A stretch of DNA of 64,000 nucleotides from Halomarina ordinaria (lineage in GTDB: Archaea > Halobacteriota > Halobacteria > Halobacteriales > Haloarculaceae). Location: positions 1,488,001-1,552,000 of the forward strand of contig NZ_JARRAH010000001.1 of NCBI RefSeq assembly GCF_030553305.1. Reading direction: 5' to 3'. Below the pieces are notes generated by a model that had not been told where the DNA came from, ran no database searches, and worked only from the letters and a program-made list of their open reading frames with translations. The translations under genes were made by a program, and so were the position numbers. Positions within the stretch are counted from its first letter, which is position 1. Every line of letters starts with the position of its first letter. Shown in pieces: positions 35,057-45,533 of the stretch.

Positions 35057-35485
35057 TCACGGCTTTCGCGCCTCGATGGCCTGCTGGATAGCCGCCAGCT
35101 CGGAGAGCGACACGGGGAAGCGGCCCTCTATCTTCTGTTGTATCTCCTTGGCGTCCAGCTCGCCGTCGAGGTCCGCCTCCAGCGACTCGACGTCGACGAC
35201 GGCGATGGACATCCCCATCATCAACTCGTCGAGGACCTCCATCTCGATGGCGTCGGCGTCGGGCGTCTCCGCCTCGGTCGCCAGGATGGCCGCCGCCTCC
35301 TCGAGCGTGAGGTCGGGCGACTCGCCGGCGGCGAGGGCGTCGACGCTCTCGCGGCTCACGCCCGCCTCCTCGGCGACGGTGGCCGCGCCGACGGTCTCGA
35401 CGGTCTCGCGCAGGCGGTCGTCGTACTGCGCGCGCAACTCCTCCGGCGCGAGCGCGCCGGGGTCCGAAGCGACGTTCTGGAGCAT
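35057..35485 (-). CDS. Haloarchaeal conserved protein (DUF5791-like)
   Basis: A 142-residue acidic, helical protein. The middle (ETVGAATVAEEAGVSRESVDAL) looks like a helix-turn-helix, followed by LTLEEAAAILATEAETPDADAIEMEVLDELMMGMSIAV and a C-terminal helical segment (KIEGRFPVSLSELAAIQQAI). Only haloarchaeal relatives come to mind (DUF5791, from memory). It could be a small DNA-binding regulator, but no operator is visible. It lies 10 nt upstream of the SDR gene, same strand. Confidence 0.75.
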   Translation of the reverse strand: MLQNVASDPGALAPEELRAQYDDRLRETVETVGAATVAEEAGVSRESVDALAAGESPDLTLEEAAAILATEAETPDADAIEMEVLDELMMGMSIAVVDVESLEADLDGELDAKEIQQKIEGRFPVSLSELAAIQQAIEARKP

Positions 35486-35520: not shown

Positions 35521-38487
35521 TCAGTCGTAGCCGGGCGAGCGCTCGTCCGCGTTCCCGTCGACGTCGCCGACACCGCGCGGGCCGGCGGGGACGACCACGA
35601 CGACCGCCGTCCGCGTCTCGAAGTCGACGGGCGCGGCGCGTCCGAGACGTTCCGGAGCACCGTCCGAATCGACGTCGAGCGCGACGCTCCCGCCGTCACG
35701 CGTATAGACGGTCGCCTCGCTCCCGCGACGCGAGCGCAACGTGACGCGCTCGTACGTCCCCTGCACCTCGACGTCCCAGACGTTGAGCGTCGCGTACCAG
35801 TAGCCCGGAACCGGCGCGACCGGCAGGCCGGCCGGGACGGCCCCGAGGGTCCCGTTGAGACGGTCGGTCGCGCGGTCCGCGCCGCGTTCGGCCGCCTCCT
35901 CGACGCCGGCCTCGACGACGCGCCGGGCGGTCGCCATCGAGTCGTCGACGACCGCCTCCGGGGGGCGGGCGTCGGGGGCGGCGAGCGCGTCGGCCGTCGC
36001 GACCCGCAGTCGCGCCCGGAGCTCGGCCCGTTCGCTCGGCGGGAGGCCGGCCGCGACGGCCGTCGAGACGACGGCGTCCGTCGCGGAGCCGTTCGCCAGC
36101 GCGAGCGCCCGGGCGTCGGGCGTCCGCCACGCGGCCAGCGCCCGGTCGACGACGGTCACGGGACGCGTCCCCGAGCGACCGAGGCCCGTCCGGGCGACGC
36201 CGTCGACCAGCCGCCCGCGGACGTGGGCGTTCGCGGCGCGGACCTCCCGGTCGAGGGCGGGCGAGACCGTCCCACCGGTGGCACGGCGCTCGGCGCGCAT
36301 CGCCCCCGCCGCGGTGCGCAGCGAGACCCGCTCGCTCCCGAACAGGCCGTCCGTGACCGTGTCGGCGGCGTCGCCGTACGGGACGGTGAACAGGTTGGTG
36401 TTGCGCGCGCCGAGGGGCGTCACCTCGCCGTCGCCCGCGACGGCCAGTCGCTCCCGGTCGACCGCGTCGACGGTCAGGTAGGTGGGAGCCGTCTCGACGG
36501 AGAGCGCGAGGGGACCGCCGACGCCACCCGTCGACGGCGACTCGCTCGCCCCGACCGCGGAGCGGTCGACGCCGAGCGCGAGGAGGTCGTGGAGGCGGTC
36601 GAGCGACCCCACGCCCCGGTCGTCGAGCGCCCCGTCGAGACCGTCACGGGTGCGCTCGCGCTCGCTCGACCGCGCGTCGAGTCGCGCGACGACGCGGTCG
36701 AGGTACGCCCGGCGGACGGCGACGCGCGTGCGGTCGGCGACGCCGTCGTACCGGTCGGGGGCGTCGACCAGGTCGGCCCGTCGCTCGCGGAGTCGGTCGG
36801 CCAGTCGGGCGGCCGGGTCGACCTCGTAGGTCGCGACCTCTGTCCGGGGGACCGTGACCGACGCCTCGCGCACCCGGTCGTGGAGCCCGGCGAGGTCGCG
36901 GCGGAGCCACCCGTCCAGGGCCGCCGGACGCTCACCGGCGATGCGAACGGGTTCGGTCTCGACCCCCTCGCTGGCGGCTCGCTCGGCGAGCGCGTCGACG
37001 CCGCCGCGGTCCGTGACGAGGCGTTCGTGGGCCGTCTTCGGGACGCCCGCGAGGTTGGGGCCGTCGAGCGCGCCACCGCGGTCGTACACGCCGTCGACGC
37101 CCCGGCGCGGGAGGTCCGAGTCGGGCGCGTGGCGACCGGCGAGTGCCAGCGAGACCGCCGTTCGACGGGTCTCGACGCGGCGAGTGGTCGTCGTCTCCTC
37201 GTCGCGTCGCCATCGGGTGGTGACGGTGGTCTCGCGGACGACCTCGCGCCCGTGGCGCTCGAACGTCCGCCAGCCGTCCGGGACGGCGACCGGGGCGACC
37301 GGCGCGCGCACGACCCGGCGTTCGGTCGTCGTGTCGCGGGCGACGCGCGTCCAGTTCCCGCCCGGCGGGCGCTCCCGCCCGGTCCGCTCGGTCCCGCGCG
37401 AGCGCGTCGCGACGAACGGGCGGGCGTCGACGGCGTAGTTCCGCGCCGCCGCTTCGGCGAGGGCGACGCCATCGTCGTCGAGCAGCGAGACGAGCGCCCG
37501 GTCGGCGGTGCGGTTCGCCGCGACGACACGGTTCGAATCCCGGTTCCCACCCTCTGCGGTCGCAACCGTCCGACCGTCGAGTGCCTCCCGCTCGGCCGCA
37601 TCGAGGACGCGCTCGCTCCAGCGGCCGTCGAGGCCGCCCGCGCCGAGCAGGTCCGTCGTCGCGGTCCGGGCGCTCGCCCAGGCGGCCGCCCGCTCCCCGC
37701 CCGGCGTGGTCGCGCCGAGCACGTCGCACTGGAGACCGAGGGCGGCGACGTTCGTCGTCACCTCGACGTGGCGGTTCGCGACGACGTTCGCGACCGGCGC
37801 GCCGCCGTACTGGGCGTAGCCGCGCGCCCACGCGACGCCGTGGAGGCCGACGGTGAGGCGCCGGCCGAGCCCGTCGCCCGCCAGCGGCCCGGCGTTCAGC
37901 GACCGCTCGTAGGCGGTCGCCCGGTCGTGGAGCGCGAGGACCGGCGACGCGACGGTGACGGTCGGAGAGACCTCACGGTCCGCGACGGTGCGTCCCTCGC
38001 GCACCGCCCGGAGTCGAACGCCCTCGATGCGAACCCGGAGGGCCGTCCCGTTGGGACCGGCGCGCTCGACGCTGACGCGGGCTATCGCCTCGCGGAGGTC
38101 GGCGGGCGAGCGAACCGGGGGGAGCGATGCGCGCGCCCGGACGCCGCCGCGCGATTCGTCGAGGCGCTCGAGGTCGGCACGGGCGGCGAGGTAGACGCGG
38201 GCCCGGAGCGCGTCGCGGAACGGTTCGTCGGGGTCGAGGACGCGACCGTAGGGCGTGTCGCCCGGGACGACGACCGGGTCGGCCGCCGCCGCGCGCGCCG
38301 CGTCCGAGACGGCGGTTTCGAGTGCCGGCCGGGTGGCCGCCGCCGTCGCCTCGACGGCGCGGTCGACGGCCGGTTCGCGGGCAGGAGCGGAGCGGTCGGT
38401 GGCGACGAGCGTCGCGCTCCCGACGAGCAGGAGGACGGCCACGAGCGCGAAGGGCACCCGCCCACGGCGGTCGTCCGCCAGTCTCAT
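35521..38487 (-). CDS. Large exported protein of the pilus-like operon (DUF7286-like)
   Basis: A 988-residue protein that starts with one hydrophobic segment (RRGRVPFALVAVLLLVGSATLVA), which acts as signal anchor; the remainder (about 35-950) is a long Arg/Ala/Val/Asp-rich extracytoplasmic region, with a second hydrophobic stretch near the end (TRTAVVVVVPAGPRG). No catalytic motif is seen. Only haloarchaeal relatives are known to me. The ATG at 38487 overlaps the preceding stop (ATGA), which fixes the start and makes it the last gene of an eight-gene operon with a pilus ATPase and platform protein. It may be a large tip or adhesin-type component; this is inferred from operon position only. 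Confidence 0.75.
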   Translation of the reverse strand: MRLADDRRGRVPFALVAVLLLVGSATLVATDRSAPAREPAVDRAVEATAAATRPALETAVSDAARAAAADPVVVPGDTPYGRVLDPDEPFRDALRARVYLAARADLERLDESRGGVRARASLPPVRSPADLREAIARVSVERAGPNGTALRVRIEGVRLRAVREGRTVADREVSPTVTVASPVLALHDRATAYERSLNAGPLAGDGLGRRLTVGLHGVAWARGYAQYGGAPVANVVANRHVEVTTNVAALGLQCDVLGATTPGGERAAAWASARTATTDLLGAGGLDGRWSERVLDAAEREALDGRTVATAEGGNRDSNRVVAANRTADRALVSLLDDDGVALAEAAARNYAVDARPFVATRSRGTERTGRERPPGGNWTRVARDTTTERRVVRAPVAPVAVPDGWRTFERHGREVVRETTVTTRWRRDEETTTTRRVETRRTAVSLALAGRHAPDSDLPRRGVDGVYDRGGALDGPNLAGVPKTAHERLVTDRGGVDALAERAASEGVETEPVRIAGERPAALDGWLRRDLAGLHDRVREASVTVPRTEVATYEVDPAARLADRLRERRADLVDAPDRYDGVADRTRVAVRRAYLDRVVARLDARSSERERTRDGLDGALDDRGVGSLDRLHDLLALGVDRSAVGASESPSTGGVGGPLALSVETAPTYLTVDAVDRERLAVAGDGEVTPLGARNTNLFTVPYGDAADTVTDGLFGSERVSLRTAAGAMRAERRATGGTVSPALDREVRAANAHVRGRLVDGVARTGLGRSGTRPVTVVDRALAAWRTPDARALALANGSATDAVVSTAVAAGLPPSERAELRARLRVATADALAAPDARPPEAVVDDSMATARRVVEAGVEEAAERGADRATDRLNGTLGAVPAGLPVAPVPGYWYATLNVWDVEVQGTYERVTLRSRRGSEATVYTRDGGSVALDVDSDGAPERLGRAAPVDFETRTAVVVVVPAGPRGVGDVDGNADERSPGYD

Positions 38488-39284
38488 CGCGACCACGTCC
38501 TCACGACGAGCGTCACGTCCCGGACGGAGAGGGCGTCCCGTGCCGCCCGCGGCGAGTCGTACCGCTCGCGGAGGTCGGCCGCGACTCGCTCGCCGAGGCG
38601 CGATTCGAGGCGGTCGACCGCGACGTCGGGTGGGGCGGCGCGGCCGTCCTCGCCGTCGGTCTCGAAGTCGGCGAGCGCGCCTTCGACGCGCGCCAGGCGG
38701 GTGTCGAGAGCCGTTCGCGCCCCCTCGTCGTACGCGGCCCGCTCGACGAGCGCGGGCGGGACGACGAACCGCACCGTCGCCCGGGCGACCGTCGCGCCGA
38801 GCGCGTCGTACGTCGCGTTCGGTGGTCGCATCCGGCCGACGTCCGGGGCCGGCAGCGTCGTCACCGCGGCGTCGACGCTGCCCGACGGCGGCGGCCGCTC
38901 CCCGACCGCGACCCGTCCCGAGAGCGGGGCGTCCGGGTACGGCTCCCAGACCGCGCGTACGCGCACGCCGCTCGCACGGTGGCGGGCGACGCGGTCGGTC
39001 GCCCGGGTCAGCGCGTCACGGGAGGGGTGGTACGACGCCGCGAGCGCCTCGTCGGCGAGCGTCACGCGCGCGACCGCGCCGTGCGCGAGCAACGCCGCCG
39101 GCGTGCCGTGATGCGTCCGGCCGTCGGCCTCGACGGTGACCGTGGCCGTCTGTAGTGCGGTCGCGGTCTCGGTCGCCCGACTGTCGGTCGAGGCGGGGGC
39201 GGGGGCCGTGAGGAGGAGTCCGACGGTGGCCGAGACGACGACGAGCGCGAGCGTCCCGTCGACGACGGTGCTCTGACCCCTCAC
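38484..39284 (-). CDS. Pilin-like/DUF7284-like protein of the pilus operon
   Basis: A 266-residue protein that begins MRGQSTVVDGTLALVVVSATVGLLL, a short basic leader, then Gly-Gln and a hydrophobic helix, the layout of a type III (prepilin-like) signal. The remaining 240 residues are extracytoplasmic beta-rich sequence without recognised motifs. GTG start 39284 overlaps the previous stop, and its own stop overlaps the next start. In haloarchaea this family occurs with pilus ATPase genes (DUF number from memory). Confidence 0.72.
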   Translation of the reverse strand: MRGQSTVVDGTLALVVVSATVGLLLTAPAPASTDSRATETATALQTATVTVEADGRTHHGTPAALLAHGAVARVTLADEALAASYHPSRDALTRATDRVARHRASGVRVRAVWEPYPDAPLSGRVAVGERPPPSGSVDAAVTTLPAPDVGRMRPPNATYDALGATVARATVRFVVPPALVERAAYDEGARTALDTRLARVEGALADFETDGEDGRAAPPDVAVDRLESRLGERVAADLRERYDSPRAARDALSVRDVTLVVRTWSR

Positions 39285-39691
39285 GACCAGACCACCACCC
39301 GGAGGGTCCCCGGGACGACGCGCCCCGGCGCGAGGCGGACGCTCACTGGATGTGACGCGGTCGGCTCGCCGGGCGGCGCGGGCGGTCCGACCCGCCAGCG
39401 ACGGTCGCCCGCGACGAGCGTCGCGTTCAACCGGGCGCCCTCGGGCGCGGCGTCCAGCGCGCGCGGGAGGTCCGGGGGAGCGGCGACGCCGGTCGGGGCG
39501 ACGAGCGCGGCGGCACGGTCGGCGGCGACCGTCGGCCCCGGCTCCCCGTCGGCGAGGACGTCGGACACCACGCCGGCGTAGACGCCGACCGCGAGACAGA
39601 GGACGACGAGGGCGACGAGAGCGGCGAGCGGTTCGACCTGCCCTCGGCGACGCGCGCCGCCGGAGTGCTCACGCGCCGACGAGCGTGACAT
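39281..39691 (-). CDS. Pilin-like small protein of the pilus operon (DUF7285-like)
   Basis: A 136-residue protein with the leader MSRSSAREHSGGARRRGQVEPLA, then a 20-residue hydrophobic helix (LVALVVLCLAVGVYAGVV). The RRRGQVEP junction, Gly before a polar residue with Glu two positions later, resembles prepilin-peptidase sites of TadE- or archaeal-pilin-type proteins. The rest is a short exported domain. I chose ATG 39691; a GTG three codons upstream is possible. It overlaps the upstream gene by 23 nt and the downstream gene by 4 nt. Confidence 0.72.
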   Translation of the reverse strand: MSRSSAREHSGGARRRGQVEPLAALVALVVLCLAVGVYAGVVSDVLADGEPGPTVAADRAAALVAPTGVAAPPDLPRALDAAPEGARLNATLVAGDRRWRVGPPAPPGEPTASHPVSVRLAPGRVVPGTLRVVVWS

Positions 39692-40139
39692 CGACACCAC
39701 CCCAGCGGACGTGTCTGGCGACGAGTCGGTCGGCGTCCCGGTGGACCGCCGGCGCGCGCTCGCGGGCGGTCACGACCGCGCGAGCGAACGCCACCGGCGA
39801 GGCGAAGACGGCCTCCGGCGGCCGTCCCGCGAGCACCAGTTCGAGGCGGGTGTCGGCGGTGACGGGCGTGACCGGGCCGTACGAGAGCGTCGCGTGTGCG
39901 GTCGCCTCGTCGCGCGCGAGCGTGATTCGACGGGGGTCGAGACGGACGGTGGCGCCGTCGAGGGGGTGTTCGACGACGGCGTCGTGCTGGCTGGCGGCGA
40001 CGGCGTCGACGGTCGTCGCGGCGGCCTCGGCGTCGGGCGGCGCGGTCGTCGGGAGCGACAGCGCCACGCCGACGAGGGCGACGCTCGCGAGCGCGAGGCC
40101 GAGCCACGCGGCGGTCGAGTCGAGCGGGACGTCGAGCAT
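39669..40139 (-). CDS. Small exported protein of the pilus operon (DUF7283-like)
   Basis: A 156-residue protein with one N-terminal hydrophobic helix (AAWLGLALASVALVGVALS), then a short beta-rich extracytoplasmic domain (RITLARDEATAHATLSYGPVTPV) with no recognised family beyond haloarchaeal DUFs. It may be a minor pilin or assembly factor. Start ATG 40139. It follows the PilC-type gene with a 31-nt gap. Confidence 0.72.
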   Translation of the reverse strand: MLDVPLDSTAAWLGLALASVALVGVALSLPTTAPPDAEAAATTVDAVAASQHDAVVEHPLDGATVRLDPRRITLARDEATAHATLSYGPVTPVTADTRLELVLAGRPPEAVFASPVAFARAVVTARERAPAVHRDADRLVARHVRWGGVDVTLVGA

Positions 40140-40170
40140 GGGGTCGCTGGCCGCCTCTCCCTATATGAAC

Positions 40171-41913
40171 CTACGCGAGGAGGCGGGCGCCGGCGAACCC
40201 GGCGAGATAGACGACCGTCGCGGAGCAGAGGGCGCCGCCGACCCGGTAGCCGACGAGCGCACGGTCGAATCCGCGGTCGAGACCGGTCGCGAGCGCCGTC
40301 AGTACGCAGGCGAGGACGAGGACGTACGCGCCGACCGCGAGGCCGAGACCGTCCGTCGGAAGGGTCGACGCCCCCGCCGAGAGCGACCGACCGTCGAGCG
40401 CGGCCGCCAGCGCGACGGTCACGCCCGCGACGAGCGGGCCGAACGCGGCCGCCGTGTTCGAGAGCGTCGCGGTCAGCCGCGAGAGTTCCCGACGGGACCG
40501 GCGCTCGACGGTCCGGAGCTCCTCGACGTGGTCGGCCATCGAGACCACCGCCCGGCCGGCGGGTCGGCCCTCACGCGCGGCGACCGCGAGGAGGTCCGCC
40601 GTACTCCGCAGGCGCGTGCTCGGCGTCCGCGCGAGCGCGCCGTGCTCCCCCAGGAACGCCTCGCGGACGCCGACCCTGAGCTGTCGCTGACGACGGGCGG
40701 CCCGCGCGAGCACGTCGCCCGTCTCCCCGGAGACCTCCTCGGCGGCGAGTTCGACCGCGCGCTCGACGGACCGCCCCTCGTCGACGCGCCGTCCGACGAG
40801 GTAGAGCGCGTCGGAGAGGCCGTCCTCGGCGCGGCGGACGCGCCGACGGACGGCGACGGCCGGCCGGAACCAGACGAGGAGCGCCGCGCCCGACCCAACG
40901 CCGACGGCCGCCAGCGGGAGCGTCCAGACGGGGAGGACGGCGGCCGCCAGCGCGGTCGCCGAACCGCCGCCAGCGACGACGGCGGCGAAGGCGAGCGCCG
41001 CCCGGCGTCGGACGCCGGGGACGTCGGGGTGCGACCGGGGCACCGGGCGGGCGGGGAACGTCACGGGACGGCGCGCGAGGAGCGCGACGCAGGCCGCGAC
41101 CGTGAGCACCGGGAGGAGGACGTCGTAGAGGGCGACCACGACGGGGAGCGTGAGGCGGACGCCCGCGGCGCGGCCGGCCGGGAGGACGGCCACGAGCGCG
41201 AGTGGGAGGAACACGCCGAAGGCGTAGAGCGCCGACAGCGGCCCCGAGAGCGACGCCGTCGCGTCGGCCAGTCGCTCGCGCGTCCCGTCGAGGACGGCGC
41301 GCGTCGCGCGGTCGAGCGCCCGGGCGCGCTCGCCGGCGGGGGCGGCGCTCGCCGCCTCGATGAGGTGCGTCGCGCGCCGGAGCGCCGGGTACGCCTCGCC
41401 CCACCGCTCGCCGAAGGCGGCGAGGCCCGACCCGGGGGTTCCGCGGGCGGCCTCGACGTGCCGAGCGAGGCTCGCCGCGAGCGGACCGCGACCGGTCCGC
41501 GCGGCGAAGGCGGCGGCCGTCTCCGCCGTGGGCGTCAGGCGCATCCGGAGGACGGCGCGGCTGACGAGGTCGGGGGCGGCACCGAGCGCCGCCGTCCGCC
41601 GGGCGCGCGCGACCCACGGCGGGAGGTGACAGACGCCGACGGCGAGGAGGGTGCCGACGGCGACGGCACCGAGCGCGACGGTCACGGCCGAGCGAGGGAC
41701 GAGCAGGCCGCCGGCGACGAGGACGAGCGCCGCGCCCGTCCCGCCGAGCGCGAGCGCCCGGTCGAACACGTCGCGAAGCGTTCGGTCCGTCGGGAGCGCC
41801 CGGAGGACGGCCTCGTAGCGCTCGCGCGAGCGTCCCGCGACGGCGGGGACGAGGCGCCGGGCGAGACGGCGGCGGTCCGTGCTCGTGACCCACCCGAACG
41901 TGTCGGTCCTCAT
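40171..41913 (-). CDS. Type IV pilus platform protein, PilC/TadC/GspF type
   Basis: A 580-residue inner-membrane platform protein on which the ATPase works. It carries two T2SSF-like halves: a first cytosolic helical domain about 110-210 followed by membrane helices, and a second about 390-500 (DALYLVGRRVDEGRSVERAVELAAEEVSGETGDVL, then AAREGRPAGRAVVSMADHVEELRTVE), then a C-terminal pair of membrane helices. Seven to nine transmembrane segments are predicted. The ATG at 41913 overlaps the ATPase stop (ATGA), which fixes the start. The duplication of the platform domain is usual in archaeal PilC and FlaJ. Confidence 0.85.
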   Translation of the reverse strand: MRTDTFGWVTSTDRRRLARRLVPAVAGRSRERYEAVLRALPTDRTLRDVFDRALALGGTGAALVLVAGGLLVPRSAVTVALGAVAVGTLLAVGVCHLPPWVARARRTAALGAAPDLVSRAVLRMRLTPTAETAAAFAARTGRGPLAASLARHVEAARGTPGSGLAAFGERWGEAYPALRRATHLIEAASAAPAGERARALDRATRAVLDGTRERLADATASLSGPLSALYAFGVFLPLALVAVLPAGRAAGVRLTLPVVVALYDVLLPVLTVAACVALLARRPVTFPARPVPRSHPDVPGVRRRAALAFAAVVAGGGSATALAAAVLPVWTLPLAAVGVGSGAALLVWFRPAVAVRRRVRRAEDGLSDALYLVGRRVDEGRSVERAVELAAEEVSGETGDVLARAARRQRQLRVGVREAFLGEHGALARTPSTRLRSTADLLAVAAREGRPAGRAVVSMADHVEELRTVERRSRRELSRLTATLSNTAAAFGPLVAGVTVALAAALDGRSLSAGASTLPTDGLGLAVGAYVLVLACVLTALATGLDRGFDRALVGYRVGGALCSATVVYLAGFAGARLLA

Positions 41914-43784
41914 CGACCCCGGCGGCGGGCGTGTTCGGTCACGACGCGCTCGGCGTCGGTCAGGTCGTCGCCGACCAGTCGCTCGAACCACTCGTGCCGG
42001 GCGTCGAGGGCCGCCAGGAGGTCGGCGTAGCGCTCGTCGGGGCGCGCGAGCGCCGGAAGGAGGTCGCTCTCGCCCCGGGCGACGCGACCGGTCGGGACGA
42101 GGCCCTCCGTCCCCCGGTCGTAGAGAGGGACGAAGCCGACGCCCTCCGCGGTCGCGCGGACCTCCTCGATACCAGTCACCCGGCGACCGTCGGGCGTGGC
42201 CGCGCAGGTGACGAGCAGGTCGGTCGTACCGACGGCACCCTCGGGGACGTCGAGGTCGGAGACGAGTCGTTCCCGGACGGAGGCGCCGTCGTCGCCGTGG
42301 ATCGTCCCGAGGACGGCCGCGTCGTTCGCGCCGACGCGCATCGCCTCGAAGAGCGCGCGCGCCTCCGTCCCTCGGACCTCGCCGACGACGAGCGCGCCGT
42401 CGCCCAGTCGGAGCGCGGTCCGGACCGCGTCGGCCGGTGCGAGGCCGCCGTCGTCGGTCCGGAGTCGCTGGACGTCGCGGCCCTGCTCGCGGAGCGCGCT
42501 CACCGGAAGCTCGGGGGTGTCCTCGATGGCGACGACCCGTGTCGCGGCGGGGAGTTCCCAGCAGAGCGCCGAGAGCAGCGTCGTCTTGCCGGCGCCGCGC
42601 CCGCCGGCGACGAGGCAGGCGGCGTCGCGGTCGACCGCCAGCGAGCAGAGCGCCGCCGCGGCCGCCGGGAGCGTCCCGTTGGCGACGAGCGCGGGGAGCG
42701 TCCACGCCTCGCGCTCGTGGGCGCGGAAGGCGAAGCCGACGCCGTCGCTCACGGGGTCGGTCACGCCGGCGACGCGGACCCGACGGCCGGCGGCGGTCGT
42801 CGCCGCGTCGAGCGTCGGGGCGGCTCGGGAGAACGCCCGACCGCTCGTCCGTCGGAAGCGCGACGCGAGCGTCTCGACGCCCCGGCGGGTCAGTCGGACG
42901 TTCGTCCGGAGGGTCTCGTCGGCCACGCGGACGCGGAGCGGGGCGGCGGCGGCCGGGGCGGTCACGAACACGTCCGAGCAGTCGGGGTCGGCGAAGAAGT
43001 CGTCGAGCACGCCCACGCCGGCGGTGTGTTTCCGGAGGACGGCGACGAGGTCTTCGACGGAGACGTCCCCGTCCGCGACGGCCCTGACGGCTCGACCGGC
43101 CGCGCGGTCGCCACCCACCTCGCCGCGGGCGAGGCGCTCGGCCGCCGCGTCGAGCGTCCGGAGCGCCGCGGCGTCGAACGTGTGTTCGACCGGGACGAGG
43201 TGGTAGAGCGGGAGTTCGTCCGCCGGGCGCTCGTAGCGCCGGACGACCGCCCCGGAGTCGAGTTCCCGGCGGTCGACCAGCCGAGCGTCTGACGGCGGTC
43301 GAACGGCGACCCGCGAGCGGGCGACGGTCGGTCCCACCGCGGGACGGAGGGCGTCTTCGTACCCGTCGGCCCGGGCCGCCCCCTCGACGAGACCGCACTC
43401 GGCGGCGACGCGAGCGAGCGGGCCGGCACGCCCGGCCGCCTGTTCGGCGGCGAGCAGGGGGTCGCGCCGGGCGCGGTCGGCGAGGCGTCCGTCGTAGTGG
43501 GCGGCCGCGGCGACGAAGCGCCCGGCGGCGACGAGGAACGCGGCCGCAGCGCCGCGGTAGGCACGCTCGACGCCCGCCGCGCGGACGGTGACCCGCTCGA
43601 CGTCGCGGTCGGTCAGCGCGTCGACCACGGCCGCGCGGCAGCCGGGCGAGCGTTCGAGAACGCCGTCGGCGTCGCAGTCCGTCGCGTCGACGTGGAGCGT
43701 CTCACCCTCGACGCGAGGGAGACAGCCGCAGCCGCGGTCGGTCGCGCCGTCGGCGCGGAAGCGGTCGAGGTCGATACCGAACAT
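41910..43784 (-). CDS. Type IV pilus / type II secretion ATPase, PilB/VirB11 type
   Basis: Hexameric assembly ATPase of 624 residues. Walker A is GGRGAGKTT (394-402), the Asp box IEDTPEL (420-426), Walker B ALVVGEV (464-470) and the His box follows at TIHGDDG (494-500). The N-terminal region has four Cys (C19, C21, C37, C49) that probably form a zinc site, as in other haloarchaeal PilB-like proteins. It drives pilus assembly through the adjacent PilC-type protein. The ATG at 43784 is a good start; the stop overlaps the platform gene. The type of pilus or secretion system cannot be read from the ATPase alone. Confidence 0.87.
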   Translation of the reverse strand: MFGIDLDRFRADGATDRGCGCLPRVEGETLHVDATDCDADGVLERSPGCRAAVVDALTDRDVERVTVRAAGVERAYRGAAAAFLVAAGRFVAAAAHYDGRLADRARRDPLLAAEQAAGRAGPLARVAAECGLVEGAARADGYEDALRPAVGPTVARSRVAVRPPSDARLVDRRELDSGAVVRRYERPADELPLYHLVPVEHTFDAAALRTLDAAAERLARGEVGGDRAAGRAVRAVADGDVSVEDLVAVLRKHTAGVGVLDDFFADPDCSDVFVTAPAAAAPLRVRVADETLRTNVRLTRRGVETLASRFRRTSGRAFSRAAPTLDAATTAAGRRVRVAGVTDPVSDGVGFAFRAHEREAWTLPALVANGTLPAAAAALCSLAVDRDAACLVAGGRGAGKTTLLSALCWELPAATRVVAIEDTPELPVSALREQGRDVQRLRTDDGGLAPADAVRTALRLGDGALVVGEVRGTEARALFEAMRVGANDAAVLGTIHGDDGASVRERLVSDLDVPEGAVGTTDLLVTCAATPDGRRVTGIEEVRATAEGVGFVPLYDRGTEGLVPTGRVARGESDLLPALARPDERYADLLAALDARHEWFERLVGDDLTDAERVVTEHARRRGR

Positions 43785-43816
43785 GGACGGCGCTGGTCGC
43801 CCTCCACGTCATAAAC

Positions 43817-44257
43817 CTACGCCCGCCGGAGGACGGCGACCCCGTCCGGGTGGTCGGGTCGGCGCTCACAGGTCAGCGAGAGGCGGTGCGTGCCCGCCCC
43901 GCGCAGGACGAGCGGGTCCGCGTCGACGACCACCGGCACGTCGAACCGACGGTCGTCGGGGGGTGCGCCCCGAACCCGCCAGTGGACGCCCCCGGCGTCG
44001 ATTCGCACCCGCTCGACCCCCGCCCGCGCGAGCGACCGCTCGGGAAGCGTCACCGGGACGGACCGTCGCGCGCCGGGCGTCCCGGGGGCGACGGGTGCGC
44101 TGTCGAGGCAGACGTTCTCGGCGGCCGTCGCGAGGCCGTCGGCCCGGCGGTCGAGGGCCGCATCGCTCGCGGCCACCCCCGCGCGGTCGATGGCGGGGAG
44201 CGAGACGCCGACGAGCGCGACGGTCAGCAGGACCGCGAGGACGACCCGGAGCGTCAC
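43817..44257 (-). CDS. Small membrane-anchored protein of the pilus operon (DUF7311-like)
   Basis: A 146-residue protein with an N-terminal hydrophobic anchor (VVLAVLLTVALVGVSLPAI), then a short extracytoplasmic domain with two Cys (CLDSAP, LTCERR) that may pair. GTG 44257 overlaps the stop of the preceding coiled-coil gene. No recognised function; it resembles the accessory proteins that accompany haloarchaeal pilus ATPases (family number from memory). Confidence 0.7.
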   Translation of the reverse strand: MTLRVVLAVLLTVALVGVSLPAIDRAGVAASDAALDRRADGLATAAENVCLDSAPVAPGTPGARRSVPVTLPERSLARAGVERVRIDAGGVHWRVRGAPPDDRRFDVPVVVDADPLVLRGAGTHRLSLTCERRPDHPDGVAVLRRA

Positions 44258-44718
44258 GACAGGGCGTCCCGGAGGCGAGCGACTATCCCGCGGTCGGCGT
44301 CGTCACGAGCCCCCCCTCCGTCGGTCACCGCGGGGTCGGGGCGGTCGTCGTCCGTCACCGGCGTCGCCAACGAGGCGGCCGGTGTCGTCGCGTCGGCCGA
44401 CGCGAGCGGGGCGTCCGTTCCGGCACCGTCGAGCGTCGCCTCCAGTTCCTCGACGGCGGCCAGCGCCGCGTCGGCGCGGCGCTCGACCTCGCGGTCGGCG
44501 TGGCGAACCTGCCCGACGTACCCCCGGACCGCCCGCGTCGCGGCTTCCACGTCGGCGAGGCGGTCGTCGAGGTCGTCCAGCCGGGTTTCGACCGCCGCGA
44601 GTCGGGCCGCGCGGTCGGCCTCGGGCGCGAGGTCGGGCAGGTCGCGGCCGTCGGTGAGGGCACGTTCGAGCGCGTCGACGCGAGCGACGAGCGCGTCGGC
44701 CTTCGAGTTCGGGTCCAT
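44254..44718 (-). CDS. Coiled-coil protein, first gene of the pilus operon (DUF7310-like)
   Basis: A 154-residue soluble protein with a Leu/Val heptad pattern over the first half (ADALVARVDALERALTDG, then RLDDLDDRLADVEAATRAV), giving a long coiled coil with a Thr/Asp-rich C-terminal tail. ATG 44718 (MDPNSKADALV) has GGGACGGGACC-type spacing upstream rather than a strong Shine-Dalgarno. It is the first gene of the operon, 35 nt after the YihY gene. Function unknown; it may act as a scaffold or regulator of the ATPase. Confidence 0.72.
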   Translation of the reverse strand: MDPNSKADALVARVDALERALTDGRDLPDLAPEADRAARLAAVETRLDDLDDRLADVEAATRAVRGYVGQVRHADREVERRADAALAAVEELEATLDGAGTDAPLASADATTPAASLATPVTDDDRPDPAVTDGGGARDDADRGIVARLRDALS

Positions 44719-44753
44719 CGAGTCGAGGTGGTCCCGTCCCGGTACTTAAAGAG

Positions 44754-45533
44754 TCAGTCGCGGCCCGCGAGCACCACGTTGACCGCGGCGCCGAGCAGGA
44801 GGACGAGCGCGGAGAAGTAGAGCCAGGTGACGAAGACGACGATGCCCGTGAGCGCGCCGTAGAGCGAGGTACCGACGGTCGCGGCGTACGTCTCGAAGGC
44901 CGTCCCGAGGACGGTCCACCCGCCGGCGGCGACGACGGCCCCCGGGAGGGTCTCGCGGACCGGGAGCGACACGTCCGGCAGGACGTAGTAGAGGGGCAAC
45001 AGCGCGACGGTGAGCGCGACCAGCTGGACGAGCCCGCGGAGGACGCCCGTGTGGAGCGACTCGCTGAGACCGACGGCGAGGTCGACGCCGGCGAGGACGC
45101 CCGCCAGCGCCAGAATCGTGACGAGCACCACGACGGCGTCGACGAACTGGCCGAGGAGGTCGTCGTCCTCTGGCGTGTCGTAGACGACGGCCACCGCGGT
45201 GTCGAGCCCGCGAAAGAGCCTGACGGAACTCCACAGCAGGACGAGCGACCCGAGTGCGAACGCGCCGGTGCGGCCGCTCGCGTCGCGGACCGTCTCGCGG
45301 ATGGTGGCCCGACCGCTCGGCGACAGTATCTCGCCGGCCTGTCGGAGGACGAACGACGCCACCTCGTCGCCGGCGACGGCGGTGAGGACGACGACGGCGA
45401 GCACCAGCAGCGGAATCAGCGAGACGAGCGCGTAGTAGGCGATACCGGCGGCGGCGAGCGAGAGGCCGCGCCGACGGACGAGTACCTGAATCCGCGTGAG
45501 GGCCTCTCGCGTCGTTCGCGGGGCGGGGGGCAT
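44754..45533 (-). CDS. YihY/UPF0761 family membrane protein
   Basis: A 259-residue integral membrane protein with about six helices: GLSLAAAGIAYYALVSLIPLLVLAVVV near the N-terminus is the family hallmark, with LWSSVRLFRGLDTAVAVVYDT, and the C-terminal FVTWLYFSALVLLLGAAVNVVL. The family was once called ribonuclease BN by mistake; the true function is unknown, perhaps transport. Start ATG 45533. It could lie upstream in the same transcript as the pilus operon (35-nt gap), but nothing ties it to pili. Confidence 0.87.
   Translation of the reverse strand: MPPAPRTTREALTRIQVLVRRRGLSLAAAGIAYYALVSLIPLLVLAVVVLTAVAGDEVASFVLRQAGEILSPSGRATIRETVRDASGRTGAFALGSLVLLWSSVRLFRGLDTAVAVVYDTPEDDDLLGQFVDAVVVLVTILALAGVLAGVDLAVGLSESLHTGVLRGLVQLVALTVALLPLYYVLPDVSLPVRETLPGAVVAAGGWTVLGTAFETYAATVGTSLYGALTGIVVFVTWLYFSALVLLLGAAVNVVLAGRD

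Follow-up and report, generated by a model that had tools for sequence, protein, structure and literature searches.

What can an operon with a PilB-type ATPase and a PilC-type platform build if no PilA-type major pilin is encoded within it? We addressed this question for eight genes of the haloarchaeon Halomarina ordinaria (genome G000, 3.6 Mb). The genes lie on the minus strand at positions 35521-44718 of the window, i.e. the whole stretch of 64,000 nucleotides (C1:1,488,001-1,552,000) that was analysed; positions preceded by C1 are those of the contig, and all others are window positions. The original prediction, made from the sequence alone, had described a PilB/PilC-based filament operon without such a pilin, as we also find, and suggested a different surface structure or a secretion machine. 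In our analysis, the operon is likely to encode most of a type IV pilus (T4P)-type filament machine of the 4F kind, a subclade of archaeal T4P predicted in silico by Makarova et al. 2016 (Makarova, Koonin, Albers; PMC4858521). A DUF7382 protein encoded outside the operon would be the main subunit of this machine, and a HerA-family ATPase a further core component. Statements about papers cited by PMC number refer to excerpts of them.

Conservation and distribution of the operon

All eight genes were named by Pfam above curated cut-offs. In the direction of transcription their order is DUF7310-DUF7311-PilB-PilC-DUF7283-DUF7285-DUF7284-DUF7286, and the G+C content at third codon positions is uniform (0.89-0.93 across all eight). 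The operon had been described as tightly packed and mostly overlapping, which is correct. Five of the seven junctions overlap, by 4 nt at DUF7310/DUF7311, PilB/PilC, DUF7285/DUF7284 and DUF7284/DUF7286 and by 32 nt at DUF7283/DUF7285; the other two, DUF7311/PilB and PilC/DUF7283, are gaps of 31-32 nt.

We followed the operon through 292 Halobacteria genomes, a phylum sample of 392 genomes and 80 named loci. The eight genes were complete and in the same order in 68 of the 80 loci, in agreement with the predicted eight-gene operon; seven of the 12 deviating loci are cut by contig ends and five are not. The closest named loci are from Halomarina (L089, L090; 49-51% identity across DUF7286). DUF7286 was detected in 224/292 Halobacteria, so that the system is present in about three quarters of those sampled, and in 113/392 genomes of the phylum sample, methanogens among them. 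A PilB ortholog (E≤1e-80) was found in 215/292 Halobacteria, always together with DUF7286 (215/215) and never alone.

Nine Halobacteria carry DUF7286 without a PilB ortholog. At least four of these (G012, G056, G067 and G125) have DUF7286 fragments only, and the match in G251 lies near a contig end. At L068 and L069 (G012, G125) DUF7286 is fragmentary and the PilB ortholog is gone, with DUF7382 retained in the genome, a pattern that looks like operon decay. Six further loci (L058, L060, L061, L063, L064 and L066) hold a divergent DUF7286 and a DUF7284-type neighbour, and PilB-PilC was not found in the stretch; these are seemingly separate pilin sets that share an ATPase in trans. In the methanogen loci L073 and L080, several DUF7286 matches stand in tandem, apparently as partial copies.

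A candidate major pilin and a HerA-family ATPase

In two loci, L199 and L200, PilC is followed by a class-III pilin gene, with a HerA-like ATPase encoded within 8 kb (PilB-PilC-pilin-HerA). From their common family and the published Methanocella layout, we infer that these are Methanocella-type genomes. When the pilin of this type was searched against the host genome, the best match was found near C1:1,670,000 (E=5e-5). The gene at this site (G000:C1:1,669,768-1,670,232) is ~137 kb away from the operon and encodes a DUF7382 protein of 154 aa (Pfam, 89 bits), whose N-terminus carries DDRAIEGLPIRLVVALVVG, a class-III signal as judged by eye. The pilin adjoining PilC in L199 and L200 is homologous to the host DUF7382 protein, matching the pilin linkage reported for 4F in Methanocella.

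Divergent from the DUF7382 gene is the gene of a HerA-family ATPase (C1:1,670,307-1,671,317; 336 aa; DUF87, 34.8 bits, over the cut-off). The protein is 36% identical to the HerA of L199 (E=2e-62) and soluble-looking, with no transmembrane (TM) segment. Its Walker A, Walker B and ATQRP motifs are invariant in 26/26 aligned sequences. Of 20 further DUF7382 loci from haloarchaea, 16 have HerA adjoining the pilin gene, a count covering only the loci fetched around genuine DUF7382 matches. Matches of the DUF7382 profile antisense to HerA (e.g. L215, L216, L249 and L251) were discarded as likely artefacts of an alignment that included long read-through frames. In five haloarchaeal loci (L057, L062, L065, L067 and L078) all ten genes form a single locus, in which the divergent pilin gene is followed by HerA-7310-7311-PilB-PilC-7283-7285-7284-7286. 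In L246, a locus of the L199 family, PilB-PilC is flanked by a Peptidase_A24 (type IV leader peptidase) frame with which HerA overlaps.

Co-occurrence across genomes

HerA (E≤1e-80) was present in 205/215 Halobacteria with the PilB ortholog vs 4/77 without it. The corresponding frequencies of DUF7382 were 212/215 vs 21/77 at E≤1e-4 and 209/215 vs 10/77 at 3e-6. Fisher P-values ranged from 1e-29 to 1e-75 across the cut-offs tried; they ignore phylogeny and are descriptive only.

Across the phylum sample, 114/392 genomes had HerA (E≤1e-40), among them 105 of the 113 with DUF7286; outside Halobacteria, it accompanied DUF7286 in 50/53. The total of 114 includes weak, paralog-level matches (E 1e-43 to 1e-68) in G043, G045, G056, G068, G314 and G522. 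With weak matches excluded, 103 genomes had both, 10 DUF7286 only, five HerA only and 274 neither (n=392).

A comparison within genera covered part of the PilB-negative genomes. In five genera of mixed state (g6, g8, g16, g22 and g28), HerA occurred in 17/17 PilB-positive and 0/11 PilB-negative genomes, and DUF7382 (1e-4) in 17/17 and 2/11, respectively. Genus g41 is a counter-case, in which the PilB-negative G109 and G184 retain DUF7382 and G184 retains HerA too.

The assembly ATPase and the platform protein

PilB (41910..43784; 624 aa; T2SSE, E=4e-20) has TadA/CpaF/GspE2/FlaI-type ATPases as its nearest relatives. Its profile matched GspE2 (2oap, E=3e-40) and CpaF (E=8e-34) in the PDB; FlaI was also matched. 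The Cys-rich N-terminus noticed in the original prediction is conserved, with C19, C21, C37 and C49 invariant in 25/25 aligned orthologs. Methanogen PilB orthologs have Cys motifs too, with different spacing. Disulfides have been proposed for the 4F PilB cysteines (PMC4858521). Here, a metal site appears to fit better because PilB is cytoplasmic, and the four-Cys motif is probably metal-binding. The PilB orthologs of Halobacteria and methanogens were monophyletic with a support of 1.0 (16 sequences in a 37-sequence tree without references from published clades). The fourth T2SSE-type match of the host genome (E=2e-9) falls in a long frame on the plus strand at L083:8240-10468.

PilC (40171..41913; 580 aa), which begins with the ATG at 41913 as checked on the sequence, is a PilC/TadC-type platform protein with multiple TM segments in the TM scan. 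Its T2SSF match (E=9e-7) scored 29.3 bits vs a cut-off of 25.2.

The accessory proteins

In Pfam, the coiled-coil protein described originally corresponds to DUF7310, the PilC platform to T2SSF and the 988-residue protein to DUF7286. DUF7310 (44254..44718; 154 aa; E=6e-25) has no TM segment. The small anchored protein was recovered as DUF7311 (43817..44257; 146 aa; E=4e-36), with a TM segment at residues 1-26 and a conserved N-terminus resembling MIRVVLAVLL. Three small proteins had been called pilin-like, and this stands for two of them. In the aligned N-termini, judged by eye, class-III-like prepilin motifs were seen in DUF7285 (39281..39700; 139 aa; E=2e-28; RGQ.EPLAALVAV) and DUF7284 (38484..39284; 266 aa; E=1e-46; R[GA][IV]STV.D), which are probable minor pilins. 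The third, DUF7283 (39669..40139; 156 aa; E=3e-49), has, like DUF7311, a plain N-terminal anchor without a class-III site.

DUF7286 (35521..38487; Pfam, 1075 bits over the full length) starts with the ATG at 38487, as checked on the sequence, and has 988 aa with an N-terminal anchor and a large ectodomain. Its conserved stretch D.R[GA]R[VI]PFA[LI][VIL]G is close to, yet not, a canonical class-III site. We modelled DUF7286 and DUF7284 by AlphaFold2; the predicted local distance difference test scores were 85.4 and 86.5 and the predicted template-modelling scores 0.74 and 0.80, respectively. Foldseek against the PDB returned nothing at E≤0.001 for the DUF7286 model, and no match at this threshold was obtained for DUF7284 in the PDB. 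Fold identification via Z scores was rejected. The best hit of DUF7286 was a Cascade chain (Z 6.5; 95 aligned; root-mean-square deviation (rmsd) 3.5) and a further one SecB (Z 6.2; 97 aligned; rmsd 3.0), both scores being of a common level; the best of DUF7284 was a ribosomal chain (Z 6.3; 87 aligned; rmsd 4.0). DUF7286 is the sole candidate in the operon for an S-layer-like gene, and its model had no informative match among the matches listed. Against the PDB, no convincing match was obtained for the profiles of DUF7311, DUF7283 and DUF7284 (best E 0.015-0.39), and none at E≤1 for that of DUF7285. By hhalign, no relationship was detected within the pairs DUF7284-DUF7286, DUF7285-DUF7283 and DUF7311-DUF7285.

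Relation to published systems

According to PMC4858521, the 4F subclade is marked by a Cys-rich PilB N-terminus, a halobacterial intracellular coiled-coil gene and a frequent S-layer-like gene. Its major pilin, arCOG02981, is mostly stand-alone and encoded in trans, and is linked in Methanocella. The operon resembles this set in its Cys-rich PilB N-terminus, PilC, minor pilins, coiled-coil gene and a major pilin encoded elsewhere. DUF7310 is probably the halobacteria-specific coiled-coil gene of 4F, its identity with arCOG07564 being suggested by the text of PMC4858521, and we infer that DUF7382 corresponds to arCOG02981. A different structure of unknown purpose is thus unneeded as a reading, because PMC4858521 describes a matching 4F set and DUF7382, the major-pilin candidate, is encoded in the same genome.

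The literature searched comprised open-licence PMC papers. The operon DUF names (six DUFs searched) were absent from these papers. DUF7382, PF24107, arCOG02981, arCOG07564 and RCIX949 were mentioned only in PMC4858521. No experimental work on this system was found, and no paper named HerA as a component of it. In the excerpts of its main text, PMC4858521 mentions HerA as an ATPase superfamily only, not as a component of 4F, and its supplements may list HerA. Within this literature, the HerA partnership makes the operon an undescribed variant of the predicted 4F kind.

Five pil operons are known from Haloferax volcanii, of which pilB1-C1 and pilB3-C3 have been deleted (Legerme and Pohlschroder 2019; PMC6491452); these two were assigned to other clades, 4C and 2, respectively. 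The clade 2 adhesion pili of PilB3-C3 and PilA1-6 are similar in that the pilins of a PilB-PilC operon are encoded elsewhere. They differ in the PilB clade and in the use of PilA pilins, and a coiled coil, DUF7286 and HerA are unnamed in the excerpts describing them.

Proposed machine

The filament is deduced from the observed gene set, gene order and co-occurrence, and the roles of its parts are deduced in turn. PilB would drive PilC, which would polymerize class-III prepilins after cleavage by prepilin peptidase. The DUF7382 protein is probably the main filament subunit, with DUF7285 and DUF7284 as probable minor pilins. DUF7286 probably forms a large tip, base or S-layer-contacting part. 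DUF7311 and DUF7283 may be anchored accessory proteins, and DUF7310 probably regulates PilB in the cytoplasm. For the HerA-family ATPase we propose filament regulation, filament retraction or DNA handling. HerA is absent in genus g4 while PilB is kept, which suggests that assembly itself can do without it.

Several points weigh against this machine. The filament is a prediction from genes, and neither the DUF7286 model nor that of DUF7284 matches a known pilus protein. Among the PilB-positive genomes, 10/215 have no HerA, six of them from genus g4, and 3/215 no DUF7382. Conversely, the 21/77 PilB-negative genomes with a DUF7382 match at 1e-4 include G109 and G184 at ~1e-30. The co-occurrence counts were made without phylogenetic correction or a control gene. 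In Methanosarcina-type genomes the parts are unlinked, and in the methanogen loci L236-L245 HerA lies apart from PilB and DUF7286. Finally, in microarrays of H. volcanii, three of the five pilB-pilC operons were without a detectable transcript (PMC4371748).

Alternative functions

The alternative that survives best is a DNA-handling pilus, in which the filament would contact a cell or DNA and HerA would pump DNA in or out. We consider this unlikely. HerA resembles DNA-translocating ATPases and has invariant Walker A, Walker B and ATQRP motifs. Precedents are the Ups/Ced systems of Sulfolobales and the T4P of Thermus with the HerA-like TdtA (PMC9905601, PMC11868833). The likeness to Ups pili and Ced DNA import lies in the pairing of archaeal T4P-type pili with HerA/VirB4-like ATPases. 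However, the HerA described here has 336 aa without a TM segment, unlike CedD, which has TM and N-terminal domains. Ced also includes CedA-type membrane proteins, whose homologs were not sought genome-wide here, and the ten-gene set is without a channel gene. A role in mating is further opposed by the pibD deletion in H. volcanii, which lowers adhesion and not mating (PMC7749143). The specific form of this idea, a ten-part pilus system of most Halobacteria and many methanogens with a dedicated, DNA-translocase-like HerA acting as a DNA-uptake or -donation pilus distinct from haloarchaeal fusion-based mating, has a similarly low probability.

A secretion machine, as raised in the original prediction, is improbable. 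In place of a long pilus, DUF7284 and DUF7285 would form a short pseudopilus that, together with DUF7286, pushes cargo across the S-layer. Such a machine would agree with the minor-pilin-like set beside a large anchored protein, with an operon containing no major pilin and with the TadA/GspE-type ATPases nearest to PilB, some of which serve secretion. But five haloarchaea encode a pilin within this very locus, and Methanocella relatives encode one next to PilB-PilC. Bacterial Tad pili and type II secretion systems share a TadA/CpaF/GspE-type ATPase and a TadC/GspF-type platform with the operon, and differ in that the operon's accessory proteins are without a convincing PDB profile match. Archaea with a single membrane would not be expected to have a secretin.

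Very doubtful, finally, is a system that relies on PilA-type pilins shared in trans, as has been published for H. volcanii PilB3-C3, with DUF7382 serving otherwise: the host genome has four Pilin_N (PilA-type) matches, three of them above cut-off, and PilB/PilC functioning with trans-encoded or exchanged pilins is described in PMC4858521 and PMC6491452, but the five single-locus cases tie DUF7382 to the system, and its presence across genomes follows that of the system.

The link of the likely 4F-type filament to HerA opens the function of the system to experimental test. Should HerA act on DNA, the system would be a candidate DNA-transfer pilus of haloarchaea and of Methanosarcina-type methanogens. 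Should it regulate or retract the filament, the T4P of archaea would possess a second motor; retraction of archaeal T4P was an open question in a 2015 review (PMC4371748). In both cases, the genes to be included in a deletion set have now been identified.

Neighbouring genes

Upstream, the operon is preceded at a distance of 35 nt by the end of a YihY/BrkB-family membrane protein gene of the same orientation (44754-45533, minus strand). The 35-nt gap (44719..44753) contains TTTAAG, which we take to be a possible TATA-like promoter element. Directly downstream of DUF7286 lies a DUF5791 gene (35057-35485, minus strand). DUF5791 is included in the most frequent gene order, found in 62 of the 80 named loci, and is a possible ninth, cytoplasmic member of the operon.

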